Below, in pieces: positions 6,852-35,303 of a DNA stretch of 64,000 nt. The DNA is taken from positions 682,001-746,000 of the forward strand of contig NZ_OX296583.1 in NCBI RefSeq assembly GCF_946463545.1. The letters are read 5' to 3'. This stretch comes from Methanothermococcus thermolithotrophicus DSM 2095 (GTDB lineage Archaea; AGJL01; Methanococci; Methanococcales; Methanococcaceae). The notes under the pieces are model-generated. The model searched no databases and was not told where the DNA came from. It saw nothing but the letters and a program-made list of their open reading frames with translations. A program made the translations under genes and the position numbers. How positions within the stretch are numbered: the first letter of the stretch is position 1; every line of letters starts with the position of its first letter.

Positions 6852-6966
6852 TGGGGGTACTGGGATTTGAACCCAGGTCCAGGGATTTCTCCTGCATCGG
6901 GTTTTAGTCCAAGCCCATATAGGCACTTGGAGTCCCCGATGATGGGCCAGACTACACCATACCCCC
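6852..6966 (-). tRNA. tRNA-Trp (CCA) with a 40-nt intron
   Basis: Acceptor GGGGGTA (6966-6960) pairs with TACCCCC (6859-6853), with discriminator A at 6852 and no encoded CCA tail. The anticodon loop is CT-CCA-A; T stem CTGGG/CCCAG with loop TTCAAAT. An intron of 40 nt (6926-6887) follows position 37. Exon CTCC pairs with intron GGAG as the central 4-bp helix, flanked by 3-nt bulges AAG and AAA, a canonical bulge-helix-bulge for the archaeal splicing endonuclease. Exons are 6966-6927 and 6886-6852, giving a 75-nt tRNA. Confidence 0.95.
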
Positions 6967-20583: not shown

Positions 20584-22560
20584 TTATTCGTTAATCATTT
20601 TTCCGGCATCTAACATTCCGTCAATTATAGAGATTATTTGGTCATCTCTGTAGTATCTTAATTGCATAGCTCCACTTGGGCATGCTCCTGCACATGCTCC
20701 ACATCCTTTACATGCAACGTCATCAGTTACTGCGACTACGTGCCCATCCTTCTCCTCGTAGGATATAGCGTTATATGGACACATTGCACCGCAAACTTCG
20801 CATCCACCGCATACACTTTCATCTACGACGGCACGGATCATTTCGATCTTAAAGTTACCCTGAGACATTGGGATTGCCACTGCACTTGCAGCACCTTTTG
20901 CCTGAGCTACTGTATCAGGAATATCTTTTGGACCCTGAATAACACCCGCAATTGCTACACCATCAACTTTTGTATTGACTGGTGCTAATTTAGGGTGCAT
21001 TTCTTTAAGGAATCCTTCTGGACCTACGTCAAGTCCCAGTTTCTTAGCCAAGTCCTTGGTGTCTGGTTTTGCTACAAGTCCTGCTGAGAGAACTACTAAA
21101 TCAGCTTCTATTTCTAATATTTCTCCCATCAATGTATCTTCTACTCTGACAATCAAGTTCTTGGTTTCTGGGTCTTCAATGACGTTTGCAGGTCTTCCTC
21201 TTATGAACTTAACCCCAAACTGTTCCTGAGCTCTCTTGTAGTATTCTTCGTATCCCTTACCAAAGGACCTGATATCCATGTAGCAGATGTAAACTTCTGC
21301 ATTTGGATCGTGCATTTTCATTAACTGTGCGTTTTTCAGTGCAAACATACAGCAAATTCTTGAACAGTATGGGTTTCCAATTTTTTCGTCCCTTGAACCA
21401 ACACACTGTATGAATACGGTTTTGTGTGGATGTTTTCCATCGCTTGGTCTGATTTCGTGCCCTCCAGTAGGTCCTGCAGGGTTGATCATTCTTTCCAATT
21501 CTAATGTGGTTATAACGTTGTCGTAAACTCCGTAACCATATTCTTCCTTAATTGTTGGGTCAAATTCATCGTAACCTGTCGCTACGATTATTGTACCGAC
21601 TTTTATTTTGAGTTCTTCTGGTTCCTGCTTGTAGTTTATTGCATTAGGACCACAGACCTTTGCACATAATTCACAGTCGATACAATGTTCTTTATCTATT
21701 GTATAAACCAGCGGGATTGCTTGTGGGAATGGTACGTAAATTGCTTTCCTAGTACCTAACCCCATGTCAAATTCGTTAGGCACTTCAATTGGACAAACTG
21801 CGGCACATGCACCACATCCGGTACATGTACTTTCGTCAACATATCTCGCTTTTTTCTCAATGGTTACCTCGAAGTTACCGATGTAACCTGAAACTTCTTT
21901 TAACTCAGCATAGGTAATTAATTCAACATTAGGGTGGTTCGCTACTGTAACCATCTTAGGCGCAAGGATTCACAGTGCACAGTCATCGGTTGGGAAAGTC
22001 TTGGCAAGCTGCGCCATTCTTCCCCCGATTGACTCATCTTTATCCAACAAGTAAACTTTGAATCCCTGATCAGCCAAGTCAAGAGCTGACTGTATTCCAG
22101 CAATACCTGCTCCAACGACAAGACAGCTCTTATCGACATCTACCACTTTCTGTGGGACATCTTCTAATCTCTTGGCTCTTTCAACCCCTCCAGCAACTAA
22201 TTCCATCGCTTTCTTAGTTGCTGCTTCAGTATCATCCATATGAACAAATGAATCGTGTTCTCTAATATTTACAAACTCTAAATAGTAGGGTGATATACCT
22301 GCTTCTGCGAGACAACTTCTAAATGTTGGCTCGTGGATTTTTGGAGTACATGCTGCAACCACTATCCTGTCTAATCCATATTCTTTTATGGCATCTTTAA
22401 TTAAGTTCTGACCTGGATCAGCGCACATAAATGGATAAGTTTTTGCAACTACTACTCCATCAAGTTTGGAAGCAAAATCCTTAACAGCTTCACAATCCAC
22501 GATACCATTAATATTGGCACCGCAGTAGCATACAAACACCCCAACTTTGGGGTCACTCAT
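20584..22560 (-). CDS. hdrA: Heterodisulfide reductase subunit A, selenocysteine form
   Basis: 658 residues including one Sec. HdrA holds the FAD where H2 electrons bifurcate to ferredoxin and CoM-S-S-CoB. The FAD Rossmann motif [19 protein letters not shown] and [15 protein letters not shown] are present, followed by the in-frame UGA at 21972-21970 (residue 197, DDCAL-U-ILAPKM), where relatives have a conserved Cys or Sec. Four [4Fe-4S] motifs follow: [57 protein letters not shown] precedes ATG 22560. First gene of the operon; no hdrBC is nearby. Confidence 0.95.
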
Positions 22561-22766
22561 GGATTCACCTCCCTGGTAATAATATAACTATAGGATATAC
22601 ATCTATAACTACACTCACATTATTATAAAAACATATATTCTTAATTTTTCTAATAAGGGATATAAATTAATTAAAAAAACCTCATTTTTCTTAAAGTGAT
22701 ATTTATTATCATTTCTAGAAAAAATTTTAAGAATAAATATCGAACTGTATGCTTATTTTATCAATA

Positions 22767-22782
22767 CCGAAAAATTTATATA
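22767..22782 (+). promoter_or_regulatory. Strong BRE/TATA promoter for a probable RNA gene
   Basis: CCGAAAAATTTATATA matches the methanococcal stable-RNA promoter (purine-rich BRE plus TTTATATA). Initiation about 25-30 bp downstream falls at or near the G of TGCAC at 22806, exactly where a long stem begins. Confidence 0.6.
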
Positions 22783-22805
22783 TGTAAAGCTTAAATGTAT
22801 ATGAT

Positions 22806-22930
22806 GCACGGTGTGGGACAGTAGTAAACTAATTATTTTACACCCCCTCATACCCCCCTACCGCTGATAACACCGTGTAGGAGACATGTCTCCTAAATCC
22901 CATTCCCACCCCTCATACCCCCTAAATAAG
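22806..22930 (+). ncRNA. Candidate C-rich structured small RNA
   Basis: No ORF is present. Directly after a strong promoter, CACGGTGT (22807-22814) pairs with ACACCGTG (22870-22877). The enclosed loop holds a small GTAAA/TTTAC hairpin and an exposed ACCCCCTCATACCCCCCTA (22842-22860). A perfect 18-nt palindrome, TAGGAGACATGTCTCCTA, follows at 22878-22895, then a second C-rich box ACCCCTCATACCCCCTA (22908-22924). The two C-rich boxes are near-identical and lie outside the hairpins. The segment is far more C-rich than its surroundings, as known high-GC ncRNAs of AT-rich thermophiles are. The 3' end is uncertain. Confidence 0.6.
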
Positions 22931-23175
22931 GAATGTAATAAAAATTTTTAAGAATTTAATGATTTAAAAAATAAACCCCCCCGTTCTATTTTTTACCCCT
23001 CCCCTCTTATTTTAACGACTATTGTTTTGTAGGATTTATAGGACTTATGGAATTTTATATTTTTTTATCGTATATAATCGTGTATTTTAATATATCGATT
23101 TTAACTTTGAGAAATCTTTAAATATCATTTAAAAATATAGGTTAAAAAATGAGCATAGTTGAAAAGAGGGATTTT

Positions 23176-23721
23176 ATGAATTTAATTTCATTGTTATTTA
23201 GTTCACTGTTTTACATTCTACCAGCATACTTTGCCAATGCATTTGCCTGCATATTTGGTGGAGGGACACCTGTAGACCTGGGGAAAAACTTCATTGACGG
23301 TAAAAGGATAATAGGAAACGGTGTAACCTATAAAGGAACTTTTTTTGGAATATTATTTGGAACGATCGTAGCTATTCTACAGGGAGTTATTGTTAATCTA
23401 AAAATTATAAATATTGACGGCAGCAGTATTTTCTATTATAACGTTTTTGAATATGCATTTATAGGGTTTCTATTATCATTTGGGGCCCTTTTTGGAGATA
23501 TGATTGGAAGTTTTATTAAAAGAAGACTCGGGATAAAACAGGGGCGACCTGCACCACTATTGGATCAAACGGTTTTTGTCATATTTGCCATACTATTTGC
23601 ATATCCATTTTCGCCCATACCTTTTGAAATGATTGTTACATTGTTGATTATCTCACCTGTCATTCACCTATCTTCAAATATCATAGCCTACAAGTTGCAT
23701 ATAAAAAAAGTATGGTGGTAA
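23176..23721 (+). CDS. carS: CDP-archaeol synthase
   Basis: 181 residues. It transfers CMP from CTP to 2,3-di-O-geranylgeranylglyceryl phosphate, activating it for polar head-group addition in ether-lipid synthesis. The sequence has the DUF46/CarS features FIDGKRIIGNGVTYKGTFFG and GALFGDMIGSFIKRRLGIKQ and about five transmembrane helices. The substrate-binding DLGKNF and the PAPLLDQ segment are intact. ATG 23176 follows GAGGGAT; the ATG at 23149 lacks a ribosome site and adds nine polar residues before the first membrane helix. Confidence 0.93.
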   Translation: MNLISLLFSSLFYILPAYFANAFACIFGGGTPVDLGKNFIDGKRIIGNGVTYKGTFFGILFGTIVAILQGVIVNLKIINIDGSSIFYYNVFEYAFIGFLLSFGALFGDMIGSFIKRRLGIKQGRPAPLLDQTVFVIFAILFAYPFSPIPFEMIVTLLIISPVIHLSSNIIAYKLHIKKVWW

Positions 23722-28691: not shown

Positions 28692-28781
28692 GGCGCGGGG
28701 TGCTGGGCTTGGTAGCTCAGGGCGGACTTCAGATCCGTCGAGTTCCGTCGGAACTCGGGGTTCGATTCCCCCCCTGCGCCG
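28692..28781 (+). tRNA. selC: tRNA-Sec (UCA)
   Basis: Anticodon TCA in GGACTTCAGATCC reads UGA. A 9-bp acceptor stem (GGCGCGGGG with CCCCTGCGCC) and a long variable arm (GAGTTCC-GTC-GGAACTC) are typical of archaeal tRNA-Sec. The T arm is CGGGG-TTCGATT-CCCCC-like with discriminator G and no encoded CCA. It serves the UGA codons of hdrA, vhuD, vhuU and fwuB, 6-14 kb away. A TATA-like TTTTATAAC is at about 28613. Confidence 0.97.
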
Positions 28782-34192: not shown

Positions 34193-35080
34193 TTACCTAG
34201 TAACAAAATCCCAAAATGATTTAACAGCACTTGGATTTCCAGGTCTTTTTCCTTTAACTAGGTATAAATATCTTGTTAAATCCAGATCCACAATAGGTAT
34301 AATCTTTACAAGTCCTGCTTCAGCAGCTTTCTTTGCAGGTATTTCGGAAAGTATGCTAACGCCGTATCCTTCCGAAACCGCAGTTATAATCGAAGAGTTA
34401 CTCCCTAAACTCATTACAACATGCAGATCCATCATTGAATACCCTCTATCAGTCAGCGCCTTCATCAATATCTCTCTTGTACCAGAACCTTTCTCTCTGT
34501 CGATATAATCCTCTTTTAATACATCTGAGAGTTTTGCCACTTCTTTTTCAGCAAGATGATGATTTGGAGGCACTATCAATACAAGCCTATCCTTGCCTAT
34601 GACTGCACTATCATAGTTATCATCGTAAATATTACCCACTGCAATTATATCGACCATTTTATCTTCAAGTAATTTGAAACATTTTTCTGAATCCGTAATT
34701 TGAATTTCAAATTCAACATCTTTGAATTCCTTATTGTACTCTCTAATAATACTCGGTAAAAGATGTTCTCCTGGTGTAGTACTTGCTGCAATTCGTATCA
34801 CACCTTCAGGATGTTCGTGAAGTATTCTCATTTGTTGTTTAGCACTGTTCAAATAATCAAGTATCTTTTCAGCATTTTTGTATAGTGTTTCGCCTTCCAG
34901 GGTTAAATCTACACCTTCAGGAGTCCTTAAAAATAGCTGAGCATCAAAAAACTTTTCCAATACAGATATATGATTACTTACAGTCCCTTGAGTCACCCCT
35001 AGTTTTTTTGCAGCTTTTGAAAAGCTTTTTGTTTTTGCAGCGATGACAAATGTTTGAAAATAACTTATTTTAGGATCCAC
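34193..35080 (-). CDS. LysR-family transcriptional regulator
   Basis: 295 residues. N-terminal helix-turn-helix (TFVIAAKTKSFSKAAKKLGV, then QGTVSNHISVLEKFF) and a periplasmic-binding-like effector domain with VIRIAASTTPGEHLLPSIIR. The start is GTG 35080 behind GGTGAT, which gives the typical LysR length; 20 residues of upstream frame lack HTH sequence. It is divergent from an aminotransferase-like gene with a palindromic site between them, the usual LysR arrangement. It resembles MJ0300. Confidence 0.9.
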   Translation of the reverse strand: MDPKISYFQTFVIAAKTKSFSKAAKKLGVTQGTVSNHISVLEKFFDAQLFLRTPEGVDLTLEGETLYKNAEKILDYLNSAKQQMRILHEHPEGVIRIAASTTPGEHLLPSIIREYNKEFKDVEFEIQITDSEKCFKLLEDKMVDIIAVGNIYDDNYDSAVIGKDRLVLIVPPNHHLAEKEVAKLSDVLKEDYIDREKGSGTREILMKALTDRGYSMMDLHVVMSLGSNSSIITAVSEGYGVSILSEIPAKKAAEAGLVKIIPIVDLDLTRYLYLVKGKRPGNPSAVKSFWDFVTR

Positions 35081-35142
35081 AGTATCACCAAATAATAATA
35101 TTAGCAAATAATTATAAAGCCATTTGAAACATTCACTCATAT

Positions 35143-35159
35143 TATTAGAAAAACTAATA
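35143..35159. promoter_or_regulatory. Candidate LysR-type operator
   Basis: TATTAG-AAAAA-CTAATA is a perfect 6-bp dyad. T and A at positions 3 and 15 give the T-N11-A pattern of LysR boxes. It lies in the divergent promoter region between the regulator and the aminotransferase-like gene, next to TATATAA. Confidence 0.5.
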
Positions 35160-35303
35160 TATAAATCATTCTAATAACTGCATATTATTATTGAATTTAT
35201 TCCAAAACGGATAAGAATTAATTAACGTGTTTGAAATGAATTCATTTGCATAATAATGGCACTTTAACATGCTGTGTACGTATAACCATATTTTGGTGAT
35301 TTG

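Follow-up and report, generated by a model that had tools for sequence, protein, structure and literature searches.

A Methanococcales-specific small RNA family with a covarying core and C-rich boxes, encoded beside hdrA

Bacteria possess C-rich, anti-Shine-Dalgarno sRNAs, such as the "cuckoo" RNAs with their CCUCCUCCC motif and the RsaE-type RNAs with UCCC boxes; to our knowledge, the mechanism of action has been established for few archaeal sRNAs. In the order Methanococcales, Klein et al. and Schattner, both in 2002, reportedly described ncRNA candidates of M. jannaschii, GC-rich RNAs of small size encoded in AT-rich genomes. Reviews cite two early screens of this species that were based on GC content. 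The trans-acting sRNA162, sRNA154, and sRNA41 of Methanosarcina mazei, a methanogen of another order, are, to go by their descriptions, intergenic sRNAs with single-stranded seeds, features shared with the RNA described here, and sRNA162 binds a 5' UTR (PMC3510493, PMC3600222). Within the Methanococcaceae, Term-seq of M. maripaludis S2 gave 38 noncoding RNAs (PMC7515710; follow-up PMC8716108), two of which, unnamed in the available part of the text, were analyzed by Northern blotting. No Methanococcales sRNA with a described mechanism was found in the literature searched.

Here we describe an RNA of this order that resembles the bacterial sRNAs in its loop-exposed C-rich boxes, which could pair with G-rich ribosome sites. 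It differs from them in being archaeal and in having UCAUA between the C-runs, a single long-range P1/P2 structure, and an invariant internal loop, and we know of no homology between the two. Its gene lies in a window of 64,000 nt (G000:C1:682001-746000) of the 1.7-Mb genome of a member of the Methanococcaceae, Methanothermococcus thermolithotrophicus. The features of the locus are the following.

20584..22560, minus strand: hdrA, comprising ORFs 20584-21954 and 21970-22560, split by an in-frame TGA
22767..22784, plus strand: putative archaeal promoter of the stable-RNA type, with BRE-like CCGAAAAA and TTTATATATG, from sequence
22806..22994, plus strand: proposed ncRNA gene, about 189 nt, delimited by promoter spacing, the conserved U-run, and homologues
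22806..22814, plus strand: P1 5' arm GCACGGTGT; nine pairs, six with compensatory changes, 98.3% of cells paired
22815..22818, plus strand: internal loop, 5' side, GGGA in 24 of 24 aligned copies
22819..22825, plus strand: P2 5' arm CAGUAGU; seven pairs, three changed on both sides, 99.3% of cells paired
22843..22858, plus strand: box 1, CCCCCUCAUACCCCCC, in the P2 loop, from sequence
22860..22866, plus strand: P2 3' arm ACCGCUG, pairing with CAGUAGU
22867..22869, plus strand: internal loop, 3' side, AUA, replaced by AUG or AGG in two genomes
22870..22878, plus strand: P1 3' arm ACACCGTGT, whose last U may instead be part of hairpin P3
22878..22895, plus strand: P3, perfect palindromic 18-nt hairpin UAGGAGACAUGUCUCCUA, from sequence
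22897..22922, plus strand: conserved single-stranded stretch AUCCCAUUCCCACCCCUCAUACCCCC, mostly invariant or nearly so across the 14 Methanococcaceae copies
22909..22922, plus strand: box 2, within this stretch
22976..22994, plus strand: C-rich tract and U-run CCCCCCCGUUCUAUUUUUU, probable RNA 3' end, with counterparts in relatives
23149..23721, plus strand: CarS-like membrane protein gene, starting about 155 nt past the U-run

Extent, distribution, and fold of the RNA

The initial annotation of this DNA had proposed an unannotated small RNA with single-stranded C-rich boxes, a proposal borne out by the homologues and compensatory pairs described below, and had placed a stable-RNA-type promoter in front of it. 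A TATA-like element with CCGAAAAA upstream is indeed present at 22767-22784, 22 to 39 nt 5' of the RNA start, and the other copies, in both families, have a TATA-like element at approximately the same distance from the 5' G. The proposed 5' end is the G of GCACGGTG at position 22806, in agreement with the original placement, while the end had been set at about 22930 and the RNA probably reaches the conserved C-rich tract and U-run near 22994. The 3' ends were inferred from U-runs, which are a terminator signal in M. maripaludis according to the available parts of two reports (PMC7515710, PMC8716108). A U-run was found in every copy from Methanococcaceae and Methanocaldococcus; most Methanococcaceae copies have a counterpart of the C-rich tract and a T-rich end, and most Methanocaldococcus copies have CACCCCUCCCCCACA followed by the U-run. 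From the 5' G to the U-run, the proposed RNA measures about 105 to 120 nt in Methanocaldococcus, 125 to 130 nt in three genomes of the sister genus labeled g3, and 145 to 225 nt in the rest. To judge from these signals, the RNA has its own promoter-like element and, as read from the U-run, its own 3' end; an alternative shorter form ending near 22949 is possible. A second C-rich tract and U-run stand behind the first at 22995-23015, likewise in L012 and L015, and are perhaps a back-up terminator.

A nucleotide search yielded copies in 14 Methanococcaceae genomes. The first covariance model, made from these copies, also recovered copies in Methanocaldococcus (best E about 1e-6), which were confirmed by eye and by place, as they share the GGGAYAG...CUGAUAAC core and are divergent from hdrA. 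The second model, built on 24 copies, had one match each in 24 of 36 Methanococcales genomes, these copies matching by construction, and no match among 358 other archaeal genomes, for which the filters were stricter; the independent steps are thus the reach of the first model into a second family and the silence outside the order. No family of Rfam 15 was found at or above the gathering threshold for the window RNA or the relatives searched, including the Methanocaldococcus loci, and a match of the window RNA to MIR815 (E = 1.5) was rejected as chance. The RNA constitutes a Methanococcales-specific sRNA family that is absent from Rfam. It is not essential to the order, since it is absent from at least seven Methanococcales genomes of at least 96% completeness; the genomes lacking it include G012, several labeled g2, and several of Methanocaldococcus. 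In G018 the gene beside hdrA appears to be carS in inverted orientation, which is consistent with loss of the RNA by rearrangement.

A weak second match (E about 0.01) occurs in two g3 genomes (L062:1501-1577 and L063:1501-1598). It lies some 12 kb downstream of the RNA, flanked on one side by a PLP-like gene and on the other by the 3' end of a small, conserved gene in convergent orientation. It contains a P2-like hairpin, CAGU..CCCCC..ACUGCUGA, and is possibly a diverged paralogue.

The Methanocaldococcus copies, with 47 to 63% G+C, are the kind of RNA that GC screens of M. jannaschii find, and the copy of that species may be among the anonymous candidates of 2002. An orthologue may likewise be among the Term-seq ncRNAs of M. 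maripaludis S2; the RNA may, in other words, already have been observed, with no family or function assigned to it.

The 8-bp long-range stem named in the initial annotation is present where it was placed (22806-22813 with 22870-22877, or else 22807-22814 plus one outer pair), and so is the perfect 18-nt hairpin at 22878-22895, which is retained in most copies with differing sequences; the inner stem P2 and the invariant internal loop are additional to these elements. The folding z-score of the window RNA was -3.3 relative to dinucleotide shuffles, and none of 200 shuffles was equally stable. The structure alignment comprised 24 copies, 20 of them distinct, with nine pairs in P1 and 7+3 in P2. 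Standard pairs made up 97.1% of P1 plus P2, one P2 pair being broken in the window copy, and double (compensatory) changes were found at 12 of the 19 pairs, so that the paired positions turned out to be conserved in close relatives, a check that had been proposed with the RNA itself. Cells with double changes numbered 63, versus 16.9 in shuffles, and the covariation score was 0.597, versus 0.249 in shuffles, a comparison that relatedness can inflate, and at most 0.209 when the partners were slid by 1 to 3 columns, a control that preserves relatedness.

Box 2 reads GGGGGTATGAGGGGTGGGAATGGG on the minus strand, with four G-runs, and the conservation could accordingly be that of DNA rather than RNA, as a G-quadruplex, an i-motif, or the relic of a C-rich terminator. 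This explanation is barely credible, since the fourth G-run is missing in the g3 copies, only two runs are left in the Methanocaldococcus tail, and the compensatory changes in P1 and P2 need a structured single strand. We are almost certain that the locus is a real structured ncRNA gene. Comparison among genomes shows a conserved, single-copy gene whose P1/P2 core covaries and which is C-rich both in its apical loop and in its 3' part.

With the CarS-like gene on the same strand, about 155 nt beyond the U-run, the RNA might also be a leader or riboswitch of that gene (23149-23721). Most Methanococcaceae have a CarS-like gene at this place, whereas the downstream gene is unrelated in three g3 genomes (L008, L009, and L011) and in Methanocaldococcus, where it encodes a membrane protein family without a match in the window; moreover, U-runs lie between RNA and gene in most copies. 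Because the downstream gene differs between lineages, the RNA is regarded as a unit of its own, and a leader function is very improbable.

C-rich boxes and candidate modes of action

Two copies of the 14-mer CCCCTCATACCCCC are present in the window, versus 0.01 expected, and the pattern CCCC[CT]CATACCC has no site outside the boxes in the 1.7-Mb genome. The locus is the densest C-run stretch of the genome, with seven runs of at least four C in 200 nt. A contig search with the box pattern returned two Methanothermococcus records and unrelated bacteria. The full box, CCCC(C)UCAUACCC(C), is found in 14 of 14 Methanococcaceae copies at either of two positions: in the P2 loop in six g3 copies, in the 3' part in seven g2 and g4 copies, and at both in the window copy only. 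Thus the two boxes originally described both exist, while their doubling is peculiar to the window genome, each of the other 13 copies having exactly one; those without a full box in the P2 loop keep only a C-run there.

Since the full box is kept in every Methanococcaceae copy, at one position or the other, the box itself seems to be under selection. Its conservation as a unit, single-stranded in the model, fits a pairing seed, and an invariant or nearly invariant 3' stretch beside variable sequence is the usual look of such a seed. The minimum-free-energy fold closes box 2 by CATTCC/GGAATG, a pairing not seen in the alignment of relatives, and box 2 was therefore taken as single-stranded. 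The UCAUA box and the CCCAUUCCC stretch probably represent a conserved single-stranded seed in the Methanococcaceae only: the Methanocaldococcus copies have C-runs at both places but neither the UCAUA core nor the CCCAUUCCC stretch, which means that any set of targets must have changed.

The most likely modes of action are pairing of the C-rich boxes with G-rich ribosome sites and protein binding through these boxes. In the former case it would be a trans-acting regulator whose boxes, exposed in the P2 loop and the 3' part, would base-pair with the G-rich ribosome-binding regions (complement GGGUAUGAGGGG / GAGGGGUG) of a small set of mRNAs and hinder their translation; P1, P2, and the invariant internal loop would keep the boxes accessible and might also bind a protein. 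We hold this reading with slightly less than even confidence.

The initial annotation had gone further, taking the target of the box to be a ribosome-binding site with its AUG, which the RNA could mask, and no target has emerged so far. Elsewhere in the genome, none of the GGGGGUAUG sites coincides with a start codon, and the six genomic sites of GGGGGTATG are the two boxes, three sites inside coding sequences, and one tRNA 5' end, so that the search for starts complementary to the box returned none. We computed duplex energies for 1614 called start regions of the window genome and for those of orthologues from G010 (400 kb) and a Methanocaldococcus genome (280 kb), with gene starts taken from a simple caller and not from annotation. 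In the start regions of this one whole and two partial genomes, complementarity to the boxes was no more frequent than complementarity to shuffled or reversed boxes, and no target was conserved in the orthologues compared in the parts of the two second genomes. The counts of strong duplexes and the best summed energies lay in or near the range of the reversed or shuffled boxes; the one outstanding summed energy (box 2 with a gene at 891694) was obtained in the window genome only. With counts and energies in the control range, the pairing mechanism draws on the anatomy of the RNA and not on a found target. In tests for the rRNA complementarity of a guide RNA (C/D or H/ACA), seven of eight box/rRNA comparisons were within the control range, and the eighth, that of the 3' tail with 16S rRNA, was somewhat better than the controls (-23.8; controls, mean -18.1 and minimum -20.8).

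Two sequences complementary or nearly complementary to the box were noted individually. An intron-containing tRNA in the window (6852-6966, minus strand), found by Rfam and missed by ARAGORN, has at its 5' end GGGGGTATGG, which is among the few sequences of the genome that are complementary to the box. The sequence GGGGTATGAGTGG, one mismatch from the box complement, occurs at G000:C1:509060-509072 and in 12 other genomes of both families, where inspected within rfcS-like coding sequence, and its recurrence probably reflects protein conservation. The matches to GGGGTATGAGGGG with one mismatch in 41 genomes were discarded, as those examined outside the RNA fall in coding sequence.

The lack of enrichment of complementary start regions also bears on protein binding, according to which the RNA is a scaffold or decoy whose internal loop, C-rich loop, and tail titrate or position at least one RNA-binding protein, such as one of KH-, TRAM-, or Sm-like type, mRNA pairing being beside the point. 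What the two families have in common, namely the core of P1, internal loop, and P2, the C-rich loop, and, in most copies, a C-rich tail, without any one long seed, is in keeping with such a role. The exact UCAUA box, kept as a unit in all Methanococcaceae, is more specific than a plain C-run binder needs, and the proposal comes without a candidate protein; we consider it a tenable alternative of rather less than even probability.

Linkage to hdrA and the selenium context

On the opposite strand, 245 nt separate the start codon of hdrA from the 5' end of the RNA. We take the in-frame TGA of this gene to be a selenocysteine codon, as established for HdrA of the Methanococcales. The available part of a selenium study likewise supports this reading (PMC11097638). 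In 20 of the 24 copies, from both families, the RNA is directly divergent from hdrA, with about 190 to 400 nt between the RNA 5' end and the hdrA start in the 17 that were measured (start codon by simple pattern); of the others, L008, L009, and L011 have one gene in between, and the G022 copy is at a contig end.

This linkage, kept across both families, together with an hdrA start that ranks among the best 1% for box 1 in the window genome, would suit a cis element of the divergent hdrA operon or a regulator mainly targeting hdrA mRNA. On the other hand, the pairing is ordinary in most relatives, where the start codon was in some cases called crudely, and hdrA mRNA was rejected as a target for this inconsistency; RNA and hdrA have separate promoters, and several genomes have a selenocysteine hdrA but not the RNA. 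We regard such a dedicated role as unlikely. Upstream of hdrA, both families have a conserved motif, TTAAGAATATATNTTTTTATA (window, about 22619-22660; L002-L055), which is probably the hdrA promoter or operator.

A tRNA-Sec scored above the cut-off in 23 of the 24 genomes carrying the RNA and also in most of those lacking it, and the association of the RNA with selenocysteine among Methanococcales genomes was not distinctive. G012, with a single-frame hdrA and no tRNA-Sec above the cut-off, is the sole near-complete genome without both. The same region of the window contains a tRNA-Sec (28692-28780) and a LysR gene (34196-35170, minus strand), which looks like HrsM, the selenium-dependent repressor. 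In the selenium transcriptome of M. maripaludis, as far as its available text goes, hdrAU and the vhu genes are down without selenium, and a term search of the main text gave no small or noncoding RNA (PMC11097638).

The location beside a selenocysteine hdrA suggests a link to hydrogen- and selenium-dependent methanogenesis. Returning to pairing by the boxes, we offer only tentatively, and consider somewhat doubtful, the fuller proposal that this order-specific RNA, through its C-rich, anti-ribosome-site box CCCCUCAUACCCC at either of two exposed positions, tunes the translation of mRNAs of hydrogenotrophic methanogenesis. The RNA matters for the biology of these archaea as a strongly conserved, single-copy RNA that is linked to a gene central to methanogenesis and occurs in genetically tractable relatives.
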